NCBI GenBank assembly: GCA_024689485.1
Contig: JAILDK010000066.1
Span: forward strand, 1-38,963
Direction: 5' to 3'
Length of the DNA: 38,963 nt
Source of the DNA: Fibrobacter sp.
Lineage (GTDB): Bacteria > Fibrobacterota > Fibrobacteria > Fibrobacterales > Fibrobacteraceae
How positions within the stretch are numbered: the first letter of the stretch is position 1; each line of letters begins with the position of its first letter. This document shows positions 16,469 through 26,652 of this stretch, one piece after another. A program made the position numbers and the translations under genes. Under the pieces are notes generated by a model, which saw only the letters and a list, made by a program, of their open reading frames with translations, ran no database searches and was not told where the DNA came from.

Positions 16469-17233
16469 TCAACTTTGCCGCAAATTTAGTTTTTCAAAAA
16501 AGTTCCAAATGGTTTCGCCTCGCATGGAGAGGGCTCTCACAAGAATTCCCTGGGAAAGAGAAGATACTCCGATGGTCCCTTGGAATGATTTTGCGAACGT
16601 TCGAATTTTTTCTTGAAGAATGGATAAAAGGCTTCCTTCAGGCGTATAAAAAAAGAGCATTCCATTGTGGGTGTAGCCTTGCCAAAATCCAAGACGGTAG
16701 TAATCCCATTTTTGGGGATCGATTAACGTATGGTCGGCGAATACAAGTTTATCTTCAACGTAGAATTTTGCACGGCTTCGGTAACTCTTCATTTGAAAAG
16801 CTTCTCCCATCCCGGTGCGCCCACAGGAAAAAATGTCGATAAAAGAAAAAGTCGCCGATTTGGCTAAATGGACTTCGGTCGTATTTTCAAAATGACTTTT
16901 GGCAAAAGGAATGGCGGGATAGGGCTTGTACTCCACATAAGCATTTTCTTTCACTGTAATATTCACATTTTTGAGGGTCTTTTTTCCGTTGGAATCAAAT
17001 ATCTTTTCATAACTCTGCGAAAGAAATGTGGCGTCGGAATTTTTACCGAATTCGAGCTTTAGCTTAAAATGGTCTCCACCCAGAAGCCCTGCGGATGCGG
17101 CCATCATCATGATATCGGCGTGAGGTCCGTTTTGAAAAGGGTGCATGATTTTATAGGGCGATGTATAGAACGCATTTTCGATTTCGGTTTTTCCGTTGCG
17201 AAAACAAGTTTTGATGTTTAGGGCACTCTCCGT
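16469..17233 (-). CDS. ureD: Urease accessory protein UreD (UreH), apparent ACG start
   Basis: The protein is the nickel-loading chaperone scaffold that binds apo-urease and UreF/UreG. Recognised by YKIMHPFQNG, ADIMMMAASAGLLGGD, SQSYEKIF, ENAYVEYKPYPAIPF, EVHLAKSATF and DHTLIDP, all close to Helicobacter UreH. The first ATG in frame (17146) would delete conserved N-terminal sequence (IKTCFRNGKTEIENAFYTSP), which is encoded directly upstream in the same frame. No ATG, GTG or TTG occurs in frame between the ureG stop and 17146. An AGGAGG (17238-17243, reverse strand) overlaps the end of ureG and is followed after four bases by in-frame ACG at 17233. From there the protein is 254 residues, near normal size. 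Either ACG is used or an ATG has mutated. Confidence 0.88.
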   Translation of the reverse strand, partial: TESALNIKTCFRNGKTEIENAFYTSPYKIMHPFQNGPHADIMMMAASAGLLGGDHFKLKLEFGKNSDATFLSQSYEKIFDSNGKKTLKNVNITVKENAYVEYKPYPAIPFAKSHFENTTEVHLAKSATFSFIDIFSCGRTGMGEAFQMKSYRSRAKFYVEDKLVFADHTLIDPQKWDYYRLGFWQGYTHNGMLFFYTPEGSLLSILQEKIRTFAKSFQGTIGVSSLSQGILVRALSMRGETIWNFFEKLNLRQS

Positions 17234-17241
17234 AAAGCCTC

Positions 17242-17850
17242 CTAAACGCCTTCAAACAAGACGCTTTTCTTGATCCATGCGATGACTTCATCGACTCCAT
17301 CTAAATTCATCAAATTGGTGAACAGATGCTTGCGACCATCTCGCATGCGGTCGGAATCTTTTGCCATTACATCTAGGTTTGCTCCTACCAGGGGAGCGAG
17401 ATCCGTTTTGTTGATGACTAAAAGGTCGGAACGCATAACGCCAGGGCCTCCTTTGCGAGGAATTTTTTCGCCTTGGGCAACATCAATGACGTAGATGGTT
17501 GCGTCTGCGAGATCCGGGCTGAAAGTAGCAGAAAGGTTGTCACCGCCACTTTCGATAAAGATGATTTGAACATCGGGAAATTTTTCGGCCATCTCATCGA
17601 CCGCTTCGAGGTTCATGGAACAGTCCTCGCGGATAGCTGTGTGTGGGCAACCTCCGGTTTCTACGCCGACAATTCTTTCTGGAGAAAGCGCTGAATTTTT
17701 GATGAGAAATTCTGCGTCTTCTTTGGTATAAATGTCATTGGTGATCACGCAAATGCTGTATTCTTGCGACATTTTGCGTGTTAATCTTTCGATGAGGGCG
17801 GTCTTGCCGGATCCTACAGGACCACCGACTCCAATTTTAACAAAGCTCAT
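17242..17850 (-). CDS. ureG: Urease accessory GTPase UreG
   Basis: The 202-residue SIMIBI-class GTPase delivers nickel to urease. The P-loop is [15 protein letters not shown] (7-21). Other motifs are the switch [13 protein letters not shown], the metal-binding CPH in [11 protein letters not shown], and the G4 base-recognition NKTDLAP. Length is typical (about 200). The ATG at 17850 follows AAAAAGGAAAA, a modest Shine-Dalgarno. The gene sits between ureF (12-base gap) and ureD, with the ureD ribosome binding site overlapping its stop. Confidence 0.96.
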
Positions 17851-17862
17851 TTTTTTTCCTTT

Positions 17863-18552
17863 TTAACTCATGTACAATCGAGTGTAAAGTTCTTCGTGTT
17901 TCATGCCTGCGATATCAAAACCTGTTCCTCCGATTCCGATAGCATCAATGGTCAAAGTCTTTGCGATTTCAATGGCTTGGATGATTTTTTTCTGTGAGCG
18001 ACTGAGAATCTGTTGTCCGATATTTTGACTCAGAGGAATCATTTTGACGCCGTTTGTAACGATGGCATTGAGTAAACTGTAGACGTATAAGCTTGCGGCA
18101 CTAGAAAGGTCAAGCTTTATATCATACGCGAATAGACCGACGATAATTGCATGATTTCCTGTGCAGGATTGATGCAAAATCATATCGCGATAGGCGTCGA
18201 TCGATTTGAACTCCGATTTGGCGGCTCCTTCGAAGTTTTGGTAGATTTTGAGAAATCGACTACAGAGCTTTTTACAACCGATGCGGACTTCTGCGGGGGA
18301 TTTGTAAGCTGTCGAAAGAGCGTCCAGATCGTCAATCCACTTACGATCGGTAGCATGCTTGTAGGCGAGCATCATCACGCCGAGATCGTTATAGGGCAAA
18401 AGCTGCAGGTAATCATCGACGAAGTTCTCTAAAGCTTTCCCATCAGAAATTTGATGCTTTGCGACAAGCGTCTCTAAGCCATTGGAAAGGGTGAATGCTC
18501 CAATGGGGAAGAGGCTGTCACAAATTTGCATCATTTGAAGTAAAGGACGCAT
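17863..18552 (-). CDS. ureF: Urease accessory protein UreF
   Basis: The 229-residue all-helical accessory protein bridges UreD and UreG in the urease activation complex. Diagnostic stretches are ICDSLFPIGAFTLSNGLET near the N-terminus and the TNGVKMIPLSQNIGQQIL region. The C-terminal part DIAGMKHEELYTRLYMS matches the conserved tail needed for UreD binding. Length agrees with the family. The ATG directly abuts the ureE stop (TAAATG), so translation is likely coupled. Confidence 0.94.
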   Translation of the reverse strand: MRPLLQMMQICDSLFPIGAFTLSNGLETLVAKHQISDGKALENFVDDYLQLLPYNDLGVMMLAYKHATDRKWIDDLDALSTAYKSPAEVRIGCKKLCSRFLKIYQNFEGAAKSEFKSIDAYRDMILHQSCTGNHAIIVGLFAYDIKLDLSSAASLYVYSLLNAIVTNGVKMIPLSQNIGQQILSRSQKKIIQAIEIAKTLTIDAIGIGGTGFDIAGMKHEELYTRLYMS

Positions 18553-19014
18553 TTAATGGGAATGGCTGTGCTCATGTGAAGAACTGGCGCCATGTGCTTT
18601 GCAGACGATGTAATCGGAGAAAAGATCTTTGACGATTTCCACATGAAATCCGAGGTGCTGGAGATAGGTATAGGTCGGTTCATCATACGGAACATGGACA
18701 CTGTTCTCTTTGATTTGGAGAGAAAGATGCCTGTTTCCGAGTTCAAAACAGACTCGACCCATTTCCTGCATACTTGTTACAGAAATACAGATGAGCTTGG
18801 TAAACTTCAATTGAACAGCGTAAATCTTTTCTCCGTCGAATAGAACATCTCCGTTGCTTAATGCTGTATCCACTTGGATGCCGATTTCGTTTCCATCGTC
18901 CGCTACTTTTAAAAGGCGACGCTTATCCAATTCAAACCATTCGAACGGAATTGCGACGATTTCTTTTGAACAGGGGTAATCTCGCAGATTGCCCAAAATT
19001 TTTGTTGTAATCAT
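18553..19014 (-). CDS. ureE: Urease nickel metallochaperone UreE
   Basis: The 153-residue protein has the UreE N-terminal domain (about 1-75, with IPFEWFELDKRRLLKVADDG) and a C-terminal metal-binding domain. The latter includes GNRHLSLQI, VPYDEPTYTYLQHLGF and a short His tail, HEHSHSH. UreE binds nickel and hands it to UreG. The start ATG overlaps the stop of the small membrane-protein gene as ATGA, showing tight coupling with it. The His tail is shorter than in Klebsiella UreE but clearly present. Confidence 0.95.
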   Translation of the reverse strand: MITTKILGNLRDYPCSKEIVAIPFEWFELDKRRLLKVADDGNEIGIQVDTALSNGDVLFDGEKIYAVQLKFTKLICISVTSMQEMGRVCFELGNRHLSLQIKENSVHVPYDEPTYTYLQHLGFHVEIVKDLFSDYIVCKAHGASSSHEHSHSH

Positions 19015-19385
19015 ACCGTTTCTCTCTGTTTTTTAGAAATGGAATGCATGACATGCGAAAAAACAAGAATTCCCCAGACGAGGGTTGTAAACGCGGCTAT
19101 GGCGACGCCTACGGTGGATATTTCCTCTATCATCGTTGCGACGCCTTCGGGAGATGTTGCTGCAGTAAAGAATGGATAAGACGCCATCAATTCTCCATTC
19201 AAAATATGATCGATGATGAGGGCTCCTGTTACAAGCCAAAGCATTTTGGAAAGCAACTTTCCTTCTTTGACAATCGTATCCCGGAGAATTGCTTTTTCCG
19301 AATCCTTCTTGTAGGTATGTTCGATGACAACCGTAGTCAGCGATGTTAAAACGGCTTCTGTCAGTGGGACTACAAAACAACTCAT
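19011..19385 (-). CDS. Small three-helix membrane protein in the ureI position of the urease operon
   Basis: The 124-residue protein has three likely membrane segments: about 3-21 (weak), 45-62 and 88-110. A charged stretch lies at 24-43, and the C-terminus is basic (SISKKQRETV). Polar residues in or near the helices include His60 and Glu65 in IIDHILNGEL, His111 and His114 in FSHVMHS, and His23. It has AAGGAG before ATG 19385, begins 26 bases after ureC and overlaps ureE, so it is a genuine operon member. It is too short for UreI/AmiS (about 195 residues, six helices) and for HupE/UreJ. I do not recognise a named family. Transport or gating of urea, ammonia or nickel is inferred from position only. 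Confidence 0.85.
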   Translation of the reverse strand: MSCFVVPLTEAVLTSLTTVVIEHTYKKDSEKAILRDTIVKEGKLLSKMLWLVTGALIIDHILNGELMASYPFFTAATSPEGVATMIEEISTVGVAIAAFTTLVWGILVFSHVMHSISKKQRETV

Positions 19386-19411
19386 GTGTGACTCCTTTTG
19401 AAAGTATTGTT

Positions 19412-21124
19412 TTAGAAGAGGAAATATCTTTGTGCGAGCGCCAGTTCTGTTGCGGCTTCACAGGTGATAATTTTCCCGTCTACTTTGACTGTGTAAGTTT
19501 CGGGATCTACTTCAATTTTTGAAATACGATTGTTGTGCACCATATCCTTTTTCCCGATATGGCGACAATTTTTGACAGGCAAGATGGTCTTGCTCAGATG
19601 AAGTTCGGATTGAATGTCGTGTTCGTATGCGTACTTCGAGACGAAAGTGACAGAGGTTTTGCTGAGTGCTTTTCCATGGCCTCCGAACATATCTGTATAG
19701 ACGACGGGTTCCGGTGTCGGAATGGATGCGTTGGCGTCTCCCATACGGGATGCACAGATAAAACCATTTTTGAGGATCATTTCGGGCTTTGCTCCGAACA
19801 TGTCCGGTCTCCACAACACGAGATCCGCCATTTTTCCGACTTCGACTGAACCGACGTAGTTCGAAATTCCATGCGTAATGGCGGGATTGATCGTGTATTT
19901 TGCGATGTAGCGTTTGACGCGGTTGTTGTCGTTTCTGGAACTATCGGAGTCGAGTGACCCGAACTGTTTTTTCATTTTGTCCGCGGTTTGCCAGGTGCGA
20001 GTGATGACTTCTCCCACGCGACCCATGGCTTGGGAATCGGAACTCATCATAGAGAAGATTCCCATGTCGTGCAGCACATCTTCTGCCGCGATGGTTTCTG
20101 GTCGAATGCGTGAATCTGCAAACGCAACATCTTCTTTATTCTTTTTGTCTAGATGATGGCAAACCATTAGCATGTCCAAGTGCTCGTCAATCGTATTTCG
20201 TGTAAACGGCATCGTTGGATTGGTTGACGAAGGAAGAACATTCGGAAATGAGGCTGCTCGAATGATGTCCGGAGCGTGTCCTCCTCCAGCGCCTTCTGTA
20301 TGATAGGTGTGAATGGTACGTCCCTTAAAGGCTGCGATCGTATCTTCGACAAAACCTCCTTCGTTGAGCGTATCCGTGTGAATGGAAACGGGAACGTCGA
20401 ATTCGTCAGCAACCTGAAGGCACGTGTCAATGGCTTTCGGTGTGGAACCCCAGTCTTCATGGAGTTTTAAGCCTGCGGCTCCTGCTTTGATTTGCTCACG
20501 AAGCGCTTCCGGATTCGATCCGTTTCCTTTTCCCAAGAATCCGAGGTTCATCGGTAAATCTTCGGCGGCTTCGAGCATTTTATGAATGTTGAATTCGCCC
20601 GGAGTACAGGTTGTTGCGTTGGTTCCGTCGGCAGGACCTGTGCCTCCTCCAATCATCGTCGTGATACCGCTGTAGAGAGCTGTATGAACTTGTGTTGGGG
20701 AAATAAAATGAATATGCGTGTCAATACCACCGGCCGTTAATATTAAGCCTTCGCCGGCAATCGCTTCGGTGGAAGCCCCGATGATCATTCCTGGAGTAAC
20801 GCCGTCCATGATATGCGGGTTCCCAGCTTTGCCAATTCCTGCGATTTTCCCGTCTTTAATGCCGATGTCGGCCTTGTAAATGCCAAAGGCGTCAATGACA
20901 AGAGCGCTCGTAATGACTGTGTCGAGACACTGTTCATCATGAAAGGGAACGGCTTGGCCCATACCGTCGCGAAGGGATTTCCCGCCGCCGAATTTAGCTT
21001 CGTCACCGTAAACGCAATAATCTTTTTCAACTTCGACGATTAAGGAGGTGTCTGCTAAACGAACACGGTCGCCAACGGTTGGACCGTACATTTGCGCATA
21101 ATCTTTTCTTGAAATTTGAATCAT
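19412..21124 (-). CDS. ureC: Urease alpha subunit UreC (Helicobacter UreB type)
   Basis: The 570-residue catalytic subunit hydrolyses urea to ammonia and carbamate. All active-site residues are visible: His137 and His139 (GGIDTHIHF), the carbamylated Lys220 and His222 (GLKLHEDWG), His249 (SIHTDTLNE), His275 ([14 protein letters not shown]), the flap Cys322-His323 (MVCHHLD) and Asp363 ([19 protein letters not shown]). ATG 21124 gives the normal N-terminus [19 protein letters not shown]; a longer open frame upstream only runs into ureAB. The start follows the ureAB stop by one base. The sequence closely resembles Helicobacter UreB. Confidence 0.98.
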
Positions 21125-21125
21125 A

Positions 21126-21806
21126 TCAGATGCCCATAAAACCTTTTGCTCGTGCTTTTTCAAAAGCGGCCTGTTTGACGTCTTTGTCGTCCATCTTTCC
21201 TTCCACAAGTCCGTTTAGACCGTAACCTTCCCGACTTCCACCGATTTCAACGAGAGTCACGCTTTTCGTCTCTCCGGGTTCAAAACGAACGGCGGTTCCG
21301 GCAGGGATATCGAGACGCATGCCGTAAGAAAGTTCTCGGTCAAAGATGAGCTTCTTGTTGACTTCAAAAAAGTGAAAGTGCGAACCGATTTGAACAGGCC
21401 TGTCAGAGGTATTCACGACATCCATTTGGGTTGTGCGCTTGTTTGCGTTGAGCTCAATGAATCCTTTTTCGGTTATGATTTCACCCGGAATCAGTTTCCC
21501 GGTAGAAGGAATCGGATCGTGAACGGTCACGAGCTTTGTTCCATCAGGGAAGGTTGCTTCGACTTGAACTTCGTGAATCATTTCGGCAACGCCATTCATG
21601 ACTTGTTCTGCAGTCAGGAAATGCCTTCCGGCTTCCATCAGTTCTGAAACGTTTTGACCTGCACGCGCGCATTCCAAAAGTTTCATGGAGATATAGGCGA
21701 TCGCTTCTGGATAGTTCAATCGAAGCCCGCTGTCTAAGCGGTTCTTGGCGAGAATTCCGGCAAAGTGCAGCGAGAGTTTTTCTGTTTCTCTGGGGGTTAA
21801 TCGCAT
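21126..21806 (-). CDS. ureAB: Fused urease gamma-beta subunit (Helicobacter UreA type)
   Basis: In this 226-residue protein, residues 1-100 are the gamma subunit ([51 protein letters not shown]). About 103-226 is the beta subunit ([44 protein letters not shown]). Most bacteria encode these separately; fusion is characteristic of Helicobacter. It ends at [10 protein letters not shown] and lacks the roughly dozen-residue C-terminal extension of H. pylori UreA. ATG 21806 is chosen because the family N-terminus starts there and GGGA precedes it. The open frame upstream overlaps urtE. Confidence 0.96.
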
Positions 21807-21823: not shown

Positions 21824-22525
21824 TCAATTGGTCATCAGTTTTTGAACTTCGGCTTTGTTGCAGAGCGAGGTTTGATCGTGGAAAATGATGTTTCCTTTTT
21901 CCATGATGTTGACGTAGTGGCTGTTCTCCATCACAAAATCCAGGTACTGTTCGACGAGCAAGATGGTGATACCTTTCCATTCATTGATCTTTCGAATAGC
22001 CCTTCCGATGTCCTGGATAATTGACGGCTGAATTCCTTCAGTGGGCTCGTCGAGAATCAGAATTTTTGGATTCTGAACAAGAGCTCTTGCAATGGCTAAT
22101 TGCTGCTGCTGACCGCCGGACAGATCGCCTCCGCGCCGTTTGGCGAATTTGGGAAGGATCGGGAAAAGATCAAAAATATAATCCGGGATATTTCCTTTTC
22201 CTCCTAGGGGTTGTAAGCCTAATTCCCAGTTCTCCTGTACCGTCATCTGTTGAAAAATATCGCGCCCTTGGGGAACGTAACCGATTCCCATGCGAACTCG
22301 TTCATAAGAGGGGAGTTTGGAAATTTCTTTTCCATTGAAGAGTAAAGATGTTGTGGGACTTGTTTTCACGAGTCCCATGATACTCTTGAGAGTTGTACTT
22401 TTTCCAACGCCGTTTCGACCGATCAAACTGACGATTTTCCCATCGGGAATATCCAAATTTAATCCTTCGATAACGCGGCTTTCGCCGTAATAAGAATCCA
22501 TACTTTTAATGGTCAACATTTTCAT
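21824..22525 (-). CDS. urtE: Urea ABC transporter ATP-binding protein UrtE
   Basis: The 233-residue ATPase belongs to the branched-chain amino acid/urea (LivF-like) class. It has Walker [11 protein letters not shown]-loop YVPQGRDIF, signature [15 protein letters not shown], Walker [15 protein letters not shown] and the switch His region replaced by LLVEQYLDF, as is usual in LivF/UrtE. It partners UrtD to power UrtBC. ATG 22525 overlaps the urtD stop as ATGA, with GAGGAG upstream; a second ATG lies two codons later. ureAB begins 17 bases after its stop, tying uptake to hydrolysis. Confidence 0.94.
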
Positions 22526-23298
22526 TCTCCTCCACGTCCCAGATAAACTTTTTGAACAGTGGAATCCGATAGAACTTCGGCTACAGATCCTTCTTTCAAG
22601 ATTTTTCCTTCGTGAAGAACCGTAACGCGATTTGCAATTTGCTTGACAAAATCCATGTCATGTTCAATCACGACAATGGAACATTCTTTTTGGATTTCTT
22701 TTAAAATTACTCCGGTCTTAAAAGTCTCAGGCTTTCCCATGCCGGCCGCAGGTTCATCGAGCATGATGACTTCTGGCTCCTGCACAAGCTGCATGGCGAT
22801 TTCAAGCCATTGCTTTTCACCGTGGGCAAGCGCTCCTGCTCTCCATTGGCGTTTATCGGAAAGGCCTACTTTCTCTAAGGTTTCTGCAATTTTCTTGACC
22901 TCTTTATCTCGCATCTTGCGCAAGATGGTATCCACAATTCGCTTTCCTTTGCGCAAGGAAAGGATCATGTTCTCTTCAACGGTTAGATTCACAAAAACCG
23001 AGGGAACCTGAAATTTTCTTCCGATGCCAAGCCATACAATCTTGTATTCTTTCATCCCAGTTAGCGTAATGGGCTTTTTATACATCGGGTTGAATACAAT
23101 GTTTCCCTGGGTCGGTTTGGTTTTGGCGCAGATGATGTCAAGTAGGGTCGTTTTCCCGGCACCATTGGGACCGATGAAAAAATGAATATCGTTTCTTTTC
23201 ACCTTTGTTGTAACATCGGTCAATGCGTAAAATCCGTCAAAACAGACAGAAATATGGTTGATTTCCAAAACATATTCGGAAAGAAGTTCTGTTGCCAT
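22522..23298 (-). CDS. urtD: Urea ABC transporter ATP-binding protein UrtD
   Basis: The 258-residue LivG-like ATPase has Walker A GPNGAGKTT, UrtD-type signature LAHGEKQWLEIAMQL, Walker B VIMLDEPAAGMG and switch VVIEHDMDFVKQIA. The LAHG-E-KQWLEI form of the signature distinguishes UrtD from LivG. AGGAGG precedes ATG 23298. It lies eight bases after urtC and overlaps urtE. Confidence 0.94.
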   Translation of the reverse strand: MATELLSEYVLEINHISVCFDGFYALTDVTTKVKRNDIHFFIGPNGAGKTTLLDIICAKTKPTQGNIVFNPMYKKPITLTGMKEYKIVWLGIGRKFQVPSVFVNLTVEENMILSLRKGKRIVDTILRKMRDKEVKKIAETLEKVGLSDKRQWRAGALAHGEKQWLEIAMQLVQEPEVIMLDEPAAGMGKPETFKTGVILKEIQKECSIVVIEHDMDFVKQIANRVTVLHEGKILKEGSVAEVLSDSTVQKVYLGRGGE

Positions 23299-23306
23299 AA
23301 ATCCTC

Positions 23307-24401
23307 CTAGGCCTTAACCTTTCGATCGCGAATCTTTGCGATGAAGTTAGGAGCCTTCTCTTGAACAAGCCCGACAATTCCTCCTTTGAAGAAGAGAATC
23401 GTGACGCAGAACAGAATCCCGATGATGTATTGCCAAATTTCTACCGTACTTCCGGAACTCAGGTTGTATTCGCAAATGTTGATGAAGAAAGCGCCGATGA
23501 CGGCTCCGACAATCGTTCCGCGTCCTCCGATAGCGACCCAAATGACCATACCGATGGAATAAGTGATCGTCATTTGCGATGGGGTAATGCATCCATTGAA
23601 GTTCACAAAGATGGCTCCAGCAATGCCTGCAAATACAGCGGAGACGACATAAATGAATGTTTTGAATCGGCTCACGGGATATCCTGAAAAGTATGTCCTG
23701 TTTTCGCCGTCGCGGATGGCGATCAAAACCTTTCCGAATTTCCGGGTTACAAGGAATCTGGAAATCGCATAAATGAGCACCAAAGCAAAGAGGGAAATAT
23801 AAAACAGCGTAAACATGTTGCCTTGGTTTGCGGATCCTTTGATGCTTCCAAAGATGGATTTGATTTCGGTAATGCCCACGTTTCCATTTGTATAAGGAGA
23901 CATGGCGATAAAGATGGAGCACGCGGCCCATGTAAGAGCTTGGGAAATAATCGAAAAGTAAACGCCTTTTACACGATTCTTGAAGATGAAATATCCGACG
24001 AGCCAAGCGGTAAGACCCGGGATAATTAAAATCAAAAATAAAGATCCTGGCGCATGAAGAAACGGCTTCCAGATCAACGGCAATTCTGTCAATCCTCCGA
24101 TATGCATAAAATCTGTGATTTGACCGCCGGTTGCCTGGAGTTTTAAATACATCGCCATCGCATATCCGCCGAGACCAAAATACAGCCCATGTCCAAGACT
24201 TAAAATTCCCGTGTAGCCCCAGATCAAATCAATTCCAATCGCAACGATTGCAAAACTGATGCATTTTCCGAGGAAAAGGATCGTGGAGCCTCCATTCAGA
24301 ACGCCTGCCGCCAATAGAACCGGCATGATGGCAAGAATGAAAACAATAATTCCAAAAGTGGTATCTGAGCCGTGCTTTAGAAAAAGATTGAGTAAACGCA
24401 T
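23307..24401 (-). CDS. urtC: Urea ABC transporter permease UrtC
   Basis: The 364-residue inner-membrane permease is of the LivM/UrtC class, with about ten hydrophobic segments. Family features are DLIWGYTGILSLGHGLYFGLGGYAMAMYLK near residues 60-90 and GRGTIVGAVIGAFFIN near the C-terminus. The insertion after the third helix region (GGQITDFMHIGGLTELPLIW) is typical of urea rather than amino-acid permeases. GGAG precedes ATG 24401, and the gene starts 11 bases after urtB. Confidence 0.94.
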   Translation of the reverse strand: MRLLNLFLKHGSDTTFGIIVFILAIMPVLLAAGVLNGGSTILFLGKCISFAIVAIGIDLIWGYTGILSLGHGLYFGLGGYAMAMYLKLQATGGQITDFMHIGGLTELPLIWKPFLHAPGSLFLILIIPGLTAWLVGYFIFKNRVKGVYFSIISQALTWAACSIFIAMSPYTNGNVGITEIKSIFGSIKGSANQGNMFTLFYISLFALVLIYAISRFLVTRKFGKVLIAIRDGENRTYFSGYPVSRFKTFIYVVSAVFAGIAGAIFVNFNGCITPSQMTITYSIGMVIWVAIGGRGTIVGAVIGAFFINICEYNLSSGSTVEIWQYIIGILFCVTILFFKGGIVGLVQEKAPNFIAKIRDRKVKA

Positions 24402-24412
24402 AGATTCTCCGA

Positions 24413-25315
24413 CTAGTCCAGGTTACGGCTTTTGATGACAAATAGACCTTGGGGGCGCTTTTGCAAGAAGACGATGACAATCAAAAGGACGACCGCTTTG
24501 GCGATTGTGGAAGATGTGTAATTTTCAGTGAAAATCGAACTGATTCCGATGATTCCTGAACCGATAACAGTACCGATTAGGTTCCCAACGCCTCCGAGCA
24601 CGACAGCCATAAAGGAGTTCACGATATAGCTTTGGCCAACTGTAGAATCAATAGAGCCTAATAAAGCAACAGAACAACCCGCAACTCCTGCAAAACCAGA
24701 ACCCATTGCGAAAGTCAGGTTGTCTACACGTCTGGAATTAATTCCCATGCATTGAGCCATGGGACGGTTTTGCATGACAGCTCGCATCTGGCGTCCAAAA
24801 TTGGATTTGTACATCACAAACCACACTGCCACCATGCAGAGGGACACAAGCAGAATGATAAAGACTCGATTGTACGAAAAAGTGCAGTCGCCGAAGCTGA
24901 TTCCACCGCTTAAAAAAGAAGGTGCATTCACGTTGACGCCTTGAGTACCGAAGATGCTCCGCGCAGCTTGTTGTAATATTAAACTAATGCCCCATGTGGC
25001 CAAAAGACTGTCGATTTCGCGGCCATAGAGTCTTGAAATGACAAATTTTTCAAGGAGACTTCCCAGTAAAAAGGCGACACCGAAGGCTGCAAAAATCGAA
25101 ACGAAATAATAAAGGCTTCCAATGGCACTCGGTAAAAACTGAGTGAAAACTTGTTGGACAACGTAAGTTGTATAGGCGCCAATCATCACAAATTCGCCGT
25201 GAGCCATATTGATCACGCGCATTACGCCAAAGGTAATGGCTAGCCCTAAAGAAGTCAGTAGAATAATTGAACTGAGACTAAGGCCATTGAAAAGAATGTT
25301 GACTGCTTGTTCCAA
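24413..25315 (-). CDS. urtB: Urea ABC transporter permease UrtB, TTG start
   Basis: The 300-residue inner-membrane permease is of the LivH/UrtB class, with FGVMRVINMAHGEFVMIGAYTTY, MRAVMQNRPMAQCMGIN and VLGGVGNLIGTVIGSGIIG. A longer frame from GTG 25390 exists, but that codon lies inside a terminator-like hairpin and adds a non-family leader. TTG 25315 (MEQAVNILFNGLSLSSI) has GAGG six bases upstream and gives the normal N-terminus. Use of TTG plus the upstream hairpin should lower UrtB output relative to UrtA. Confidence 0.92.
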   Translation of the reverse strand: MEQAVNILFNGLSLSSIILLTSLGLAITFGVMRVINMAHGEFVMIGAYTTYVVQQVFTQFLPSAIGSLYYFVSIFAAFGVAFLLGSLLEKFVISRLYGREIDSLLATWGISLILQQAARSIFGTQGVNVNAPSFLSGGISFGDCTFSYNRVFIILLVSLCMVAVWFVMYKSNFGRQMRAVMQNRPMAQCMGINSRRVDNLTFAMGSGFAGVAGCSVALLGSIDSTVGQSYIVNSFMAVVLGGVGNLIGTVIGSGIIGISSIFTENYTSSTIAKAVVLLIVIVFLQKRPQGLFVIKSRNLD

Positions 25316-25363
25316 AATATCCTCGTCTGCTCTGGCTAAAAGATGATGGATGCTGATTTCTTC

Positions 25364-25391
25364 AAAAAGTCGTGCCCCGTGAAGGAGCACG
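25364..25391 (-). terminator. Partial terminator/attenuator between urtA and urtB
   Basis: On the reverse strand CGTGCTCC and GGGGCACG form an 8-bp stem (one G-U pair) with a five-base loop, followed by ACTTTTT. It lies in the 110-base space after the binding-protein gene. In ABC operons such elements usually let the binding protein be made in excess while some transcripts read through. Confidence 0.65.
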
Positions 25392-25425
25392 GCTCTTGAG
25401 GAGAGGTTTTATGAAGACACCGTTT

Positions 25426-26652
25426 TTAATTCAATGGCTGGAGACCTGCCTTGACTGCCCAATCGTAAGTGGTAAGGTACGGGTCAGGAGATACAGGTGC
25501 AGGAGTTGCAAAGACTTCGTGAATCAGACCATCTTCAGCCACTTCGCCGATACGGACAGGCTTCGAAAGGTGCTGATTTTTACCGTCGATGACCACTTTA
25601 CCTTCTGGAGCGGTGAATTCCACAGAACCCGAACGGATCACGCTGAGAACGGAGTCTACAGCAAAGCTTCCTGCCTTTTTAACCGCTTCTGCCCAGAGGT
25701 AAACGGCGTCGTATGCGGCTTCTGCAGGGTCGGAAGTCACACGGTTGGAACCGAACTTTGCCTTGTATGCGGCAACGAAAACGTCATTTTCGGGTGTCTT
25801 GGTCGTTTGATAGTAGTTCCAAGAAACCAGGTGACCTTTCAAAATGCTCGGCCCAATCGTGGAGACTTCTTCTTCTGCAATCGAGAATGACATGGTCATG
25901 TATTCTTTGCTTGTGTAGTTCTTTTCAGACATCTGCTTGAAGAAGGACACGTTACCCGTTCCGTTCAACGTGTTGACGATTACATCAGGCTTTGCCACTT
26001 CGATCTTCGAAATGATAGCGGCAAAATCTGTCTGATCCATATCCGCATATTCTTCGCCGACGACAGAAATGCCTGCGGCTTTTGCCTGTGCGTTGATAAT
26101 CATATTGGCCGTGCGCGGGAATACGTAATCGGAACCGAGCAGGAAGAACTTTTTATAGCCTTTTTCGATCAAGTATTCAATCGCGGGAACGATCTGCTGA
26201 TTTGGAGCTGCGCCTGTATAGACAATATTCGGAGAGGCTTCCATGCCTTCATACTGGACTGGATACCAGAGCAACGATTTGTATTCTTCAAAAATCGGTT
26301 TGACCGCTTTACGCGACGAGGATGTCCAGCAACCGAAAACGGTAGCGACTTTTTCGATATCAACAAGTTTTTCTGCTTTTGTTGCAAATGTTGCTGGTTC
26401 CGAAGCACCGTCTTCTTCTACGAAAATGATTTTTTTCCCGAGGACACCACCGGCGGCATTAATCTGCTCAATAGCAAGAACTTCAGCGTCACGAACCGCT
26501 TTTTCGCTGATGGCCATCGGTCCCGTTAAAGAATGCAGTAAGCCGACCTTTACGGTTGCCTGGCTTTTTTCTTCCTCGCCTCCACAGCCGAAAATTCCGG
26601 CTGTCAAAGCTCCTGCCGCAAGAGTGGTTAAAAGAGTTTTTTTCAGGTTCAT
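25426..26652 (-). CDS. urtA: Urea ABC transporter substrate-binding lipoprotein UrtA
   Basis: The 408-residue protein has a lipoprotein-type signal (MNLKKTLLTTLAAGALTAG, lipobox GIFGC, Cys near 23). The type I periplasmic-binding fold follows: VKVGLLHSLTGPMAISE, NAAGGVLGKKI, VFGCWTSSSRKAV, YPVQYEGMEASPNIVYTGAAPNQQ and FLLGSDYVFPRTAN. The last three are diagnostic of urea/short-amide binding proteins. ATG 26652 is preceded by GAGGA and starts the signal peptide; an upstream in-frame extension has no support. As the first gene it would receive the sigma-54-type promoter at 26686-26705. Confidence 0.96.
   Translation of the reverse strand: MNLKKTLLTTLAAGALTAGIFGCGGEEEKSQATVKVGLLHSLTGPMAISEKAVRDAEVLAIEQINAAGGVLGKKIIFVEEDGASEPATFATKAEKLVDIEKVATVFGCWTSSSRKAVKPIFEEYKSLLWYPVQYEGMEASPNIVYTGAAPNQQIVPAIEYLIEKGYKKFFLLGSDYVFPRTANMIINAQAKAAGISVVGEEYADMDQTDFAAIISKIEVAKPDVIVNTLNGTGNVSFFKQMSEKNYTSKEYMTMSFSIAEEEVSTIGPSILKGHLVSWNYYQTTKTPENDVFVAAYKAKFGSNRVTSDPAEAAYDAVYLWAEAVKKAGSFAVDSVLSVIRSGSVEFTAPEGKVVIDGKNQHLSKPVRIGEVAEDGLIHEVFATPAPVSPDPYLTTYDWAVKAGLQPLN

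Follow-up and report, generated by a model that had tools for sequence, protein, structure and literature searches.

The urease operon of a Fibrobacter sp. genome contains a gene for a small membrane protein, here termed X, whose homologues accompany three unrelated nickel systems. The linkage of X to nickel is well supported, and its best explanation is that X is probably a Ni2+ capture and import protein, which in some cases works with a small partner protein, Y. Either alone or together with the probably related Y, X may well constitute a novel importer family of minimal size, with three helices and an N-terminal Cys-based Ni2+ site. Such importers, occurring in Fibrobacteraceae, Treponema and rumen or gut Bacteroidales, would provide nickel to urease, to nickel-pincer enzymes and to oxidoreductases that depend on HypAB.

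The stretch of DNA analysed here (the window; 38,963 nucleotides) carries on its minus strand, in this order, urtABCDE, ureAB (a gamma-beta fusion), ureC, X, ureE, ureF, ureG and ureD. The X reading frame starts with ATG at position 19385, between ureC and ureE, and encodes 124 amino acids. The following features were located:

21824..26649, minus strand: urtE, urtD, urtC, urtB and urtA, putative urea ABC transporter (sequence and same order in relatives)
21126..21806, minus strand: ureAB gamma-beta fusion (Pfam; start placed where the gamma domain begins)
19412..21124, minus strand: ureC, urease alpha (Pfam)
19392..19399, minus strand: ribosome-binding site of X, AAAAGGAG, 6 nt 5' of the ATG
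19374..19385, minus strand: M-[SAC]-C-F motif at the N terminus of X, proposed to capture Ni2+ on the outside (56-homologue alignment)
19011..19385, minus strand: X, three-helix membrane protein, candidate for Ni2+ capture or uptake (without Pfam, NCBIfam or PDB match)
18553..19014, minus strand: ureE, ATGA overlap with X (Pfam)
17863..18552, minus strand: ureF (Pfam)
17242..17850, minus strand: ureG (Pfam)
16469..17146, minus strand: ureD (ureH) (Pfam)

X follows ureC at a spacing of 26 bp. As stated in a first-pass annotation of this DNA, it looks like an expressed gene: both its own AAAAGGAG site and the ATGA shared by its stop codon and the ureE start (junction GGTATGATTAC) were confirmed. 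The urt genes were putatively assigned from their sequence and from matching operons in relatives, and suggest that the window already encodes a urea uptake system 5' of the urease genes. An Rfam match to RF02514 (5' ureB sRNA) at 20680-20974 on the plus strand, opposite ureC, was also obtained in locus L055 and is probably due to the ureC coding sequence being conserved. Nickel/cobalt riboswitches were not found in any of 14 sources.

X contains three hydrophobic segments, and its AlphaFold2 model, which is of moderate confidence (mean pLDDT 78, pTM 0.52), has helices at residues 5-27, 32-62 and 79-123. The earlier descriptions of X as a three-helix protein other than UreI and as a member of an unrecognised family both held. 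No family was assigned by searches of Pfam (E<=1), NCBIfam and PDB sequences or by Foldseek against the PDB. Homology to UreI, and with it a function as urea channel of that type, was rejected with 0 of 21 family members matching AmiS_UreI at E<=10 (Pfam). Scattered weak Pfam matches, such as that of one member to MerC (E=0.16), were taken as chance.

Members of the X family are three-helix inner-membrane proteins of about 96-140 amino acids. A search of 101 genomes around that of the window, which was counted too, found them in 17; they also occurred in 13 of 247 Spirochaetota genomes and in 23 more loci of other genomes, nearly all of them from rumen or gut Bacteroidales plus one Treponema. 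In one sampled Bacteroidales order X is rare (two of 247 genomes). X homologues are under purifying selection: each of ten pairs had a dN much lower than its dS. Within the window's genus (six genomes), presence of X coincided exactly with presence of urease or LarC. LarC was encoded in 10 of the 13 X-positive Spirochaetota genomes as compared to 85 of 247 overall (p=0.0017), counts which overstate independence because LarC, urease and X share lineages; the three LarC-negative genomes had hypAB loci or urt instead. Genome G044 possesses urease while X was undetected; its contig stops after ureE, before the ureG-ureD site at which X resides in its genus.

A nickel-maturation gene (ure, lar or hyp) was present within 8 kb of X in 47 of 50 inspected loci, including the window. 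The exceptions were (i) L026, with X at a contig edge beside DUF5692; (ii) L038 from a Treponema, with X directly 3' of urtABCDE on a contig in which no urease genes were found; and (iii) L088, where X and Y stand by themselves in a genome that encodes LarC. The urease setting comprises the window and five other Fibrobacteraceae, the latter with the order ureG-X-Y-ureD, and one Treponema with urtABCDE-X-Y. In Fibrobacteraceae and most X-positive Treponema, X occurs with larB, larC and larE (nickel-pincer cofactor), and the Fibrobacteraceae lar loci with X also encode TatC and a DUF362 protein with a Tat signal. The third setting, that of Bacteroidales and two Treponema, comprises hypB, a gene for a large FAD/iron-sulphur oxidoreductase, and then hypA, X and DUF5692. 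Such loci (L021:3078-8784, L078:9521-14847 and L084:4587-10101, from rumen Bacteroidales and Treponema) resemble the neighbourhoods of isoprene-reductase homologues and are putatively of that type; nickel has been proposed independently for these homologues, and DUF5692 was seen as their neighbour (PMC10134865). Urease, LarBCE and HypAB concern different enzymes and different substrates, nickel being their sole common factor.

Two further observations were made in lar loci. At L045:11068-15397 and in similar Fibrobacteraceae loci, larB-larC-larE occurs with no evident larA, and the cluster is adjoined by genes for the Tat-signal DUF362 protein and for TatA/TatC; this arrangement possibly points to a nickel-pincer enzyme that is exported and has Tat genes of its own. 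In Treponema, an ArsP_1-type permease (PF03773, tested in L081) is encoded near lar genes and X at L081:5841-6719, and similarly in L077 and L086.

The first-pass annotation had placed X in the ureI slot of a Helicobacter-like operon and proposed a specific linkage to urease. The position between ureC and ureE was correct for the window, but is coincidental, as five other Fibrobacteraceae have X between ureG and ureD. The proposed urease linkage failed a preset neighbourhood test: most homologues are located in lar or hypAB-type loci, outside urease operons. A urea, ammonia or proton channel replacing UreI, to which the gene order in the window and the place of X directly after urtABCDE in one Treponema might point, is very improbable given these urease-free loci, the lack of AmiS/UreI matches and the urea ABC transporter already encoded upstream. 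Of the earlier proposal of a transporter or gate, membrane transport or metal handling is retained as probable, with nickel among the options it had named, whereas gating of urea, ammonia or protons is disfavoured because the feature common to the contexts of X is nickel. Equally improbable is a role in redox or cofactor steps shared by these loci rather than in nickel metabolism: DUF362 is found near many lar-linked copies, and an oxidoreductase gene and DUF5692 adjoin Bacteroidales X, yet neither neighbour occurs in the urease operons, and the three contexts share no redox partner.

Mapped on the X tree, which has weak support at many forks and some long branches that join each other, the context label changed at least six times. 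X of the window is nearest to a lar-linked X (54%), whereas the other urease-linked copies of Fibrobacteraceae form a supported branch of their own beside different lar-linked copies. X was therefore acquired by urease operons on two or more occasions. That different nickel systems recruited it repeatedly would be difficult to account for if X did not act on nickel.

The survey of known nickel importers covered CbiM/NikM, HupE/UreJ and NicO. CbiM/NikM was encoded in none of 24 X-positive genomes as opposed to 36 of 60 X-less genomes classed as nickel-using by the presence of LarC or urease (p=6e-8; genomes not independent). The same held for LarC-positive Spirochaetota, with CbiM/NikM in 0 of 8 X-positive and 20 of 29 X-less genomes (p=6e-4; genomes not independent). 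In G015, G064, G081, G083 and G443, NikM is encoded within 2 kb of larC, a place held by X in relatives; in G015, which belongs to the window's family, larB-larC-larE is followed by a gene for a CbiM/PDGLE protein and then by NikQ- and NikO-like genes (the latter recognised by inspection). X shows two properties expected of a nickel-uptake class, linkage to genes for nickel enzymes or their maturation and complementarity with CbiM. Export of nickel, by which X would protect cells that import the metal for their enzymes, is improbable: X is a membrane protein in nickel loci, and a MerR-type regulator adjoins it in some lar loci, but it is complementary to the importer NikM and located within maturation operons.

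Fourteen residues never varied in 56 X sequences (Met1, Cys3, Phe4, Pro7, Leu45, Leu49, Leu56, His60, Gly64, Glu65, Glu88, Gly93, Thr101 and Trp104), and residue 2 was Ser, Ala or Cys in all of them. Cys3, His60, Glu65 and Glu88 are thus invariant candidate ligands. The first-pass annotation had singled out His60, Glu65, His111 and His114, of which only the first two are invariant, and had passed over Cys3 and Glu88. Mean numbers of Lys and Arg were 0 in the N terminus, 5.3 in loop 1, 0.5 in loop 2 and 4.4 in the C-terminal tail. Since positive charge is concentrated in loop 1 and the C-terminal tail and nearly missing from the N terminus and loop 2, the positive-inside rule predicts an N-out/C-in orientation. 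This would place Cys3 at the outer face of the membrane, together with His60 and Glu65, where helix 2 ends, and Glu88, where helix 3 begins.

These predictions also bear on whether X might bind nickel at the membrane without transporting it, acting as metallochaperone, as sensor or as scaffold on which the maturation proteins or another importer (e.g., NicO) would assemble. The small size of X and its invariant candidate ligands would suit such a function. So would the lack, in the window, of an energy-coupling gene next to X other than those for the ATPases of the urea transporter. In addition, NicO was present in all ten Fibrobacteraceae tested, two of them X-negative, and this NicO-family protein might move nickel too. 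We nevertheless consider this function unlikely. The four ligands are predicted to be outside, away from UreE, LarC and HypB; the 16 Treponema and Bacteroidales genomes tested encode no NicO, CbiM or HupE that X could assist; and NikM takes a position beside larC in the absence of X. In the window genome, NicO belongs to another metal transport locus (L098:3796-6204; G000 contig C76) with the order DUF1007, NicO, ZIP transporter.

For nickel import by X, the following route is proposed. X, with its N terminus outside and its C terminus inside, would bind Ni2+ at an outer-face site formed by an N-terminal [Ser/Ala/Cys]-Cys, after probable removal of Met, or by Met-x-Cys, together with His60, Glu65 and Glu88. 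The N-terminal amine and Cys, at position 2 if Met is removed or 3 if it is kept, would make a plausible Ni2+ chelate, judged from general metal chemistry and by analogy to nickel superoxide dismutase and NikM. An oligomer of X, or X together with Y where Y exists, would move Ni2+ inward; an oligomer must be assumed because three helices are few for a permease. UreE/UreG, LarC or HypA/HypB would then load Ni2+ into urease, the nickel-pincer cofactor or the HypAB-dependent oxidoreductase, so that X would supply the nickel enzymes encoded beside it.

Y is an unnamed membrane protein of 90-110 amino acids encoded directly 3' of X in many loci (e.g., L055:10021-10332, L054:9387-9704 and L038:10396-10671) and matched no Pfam or NCBIfam family. 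It is weakly similar to X (WGASLMW..D as compared to WGGSALL..EH), and alignment with hhalign (E=2e-4, probability 47%) tentatively suggests that the two are paralogs. Y was not found in the window genome or the tested Bacteroidales genomes. Its absence from the former implies that X can act without Y.

Few transporter families are known to bring nickel into bacteria. X has no match to those tested, and the recurrence of its family beside the genes of three different nickel enzymes suggests an unrecognised route of bacterial nickel uptake. Active ureases in a cattle-rumen metaproteome were assigned to Fibrobacter and Treponema (PMC8776097). As lineages of both carry X, in one Treponema beside a urea transporter, X may set how much nickel is available for ureolysis and the release of ammonia in the rumen. 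X could also be used to recognise nickel-dependent loci, among them the putative isoprene-reductase-type operons, for which a dependence on nickel is only a proposal (PMC10134865).

Among known systems, UreI/AmiS of H. pylori resembles X in gene-order position alone. UreI has six helices as compared to three in X, and X homologues occur without urease. NicO/NiCoT proteins (PF03824) transport nickel or cobalt; X has no PF03824 match, and NicO is shared by the two X-negative relatives. NikM/CbiM (PF01891), the substrate-binding membrane subunit of ECF nickel/cobalt transporters, is encoded with larBCE in relatives, as is X, and its N terminus helps to bind the metal at the outer face. It has about seven helices, whereas X has three, no PF01891 match and no NikQ/NikO ATPase partners beside it in the window operon. 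HupE/UreJ (PF04955) is larger than X, which has no PF04955 match, and was absent from all 26 genomes tested, including 24 that carry X. HupE/UreJ and UreH, secondary transporters for nickel encoded in urease and hydrogenase operons, are nevertheless like X in being small membrane proteins for which nickel transport was predicted from this kind of genome context (PMC2667541).
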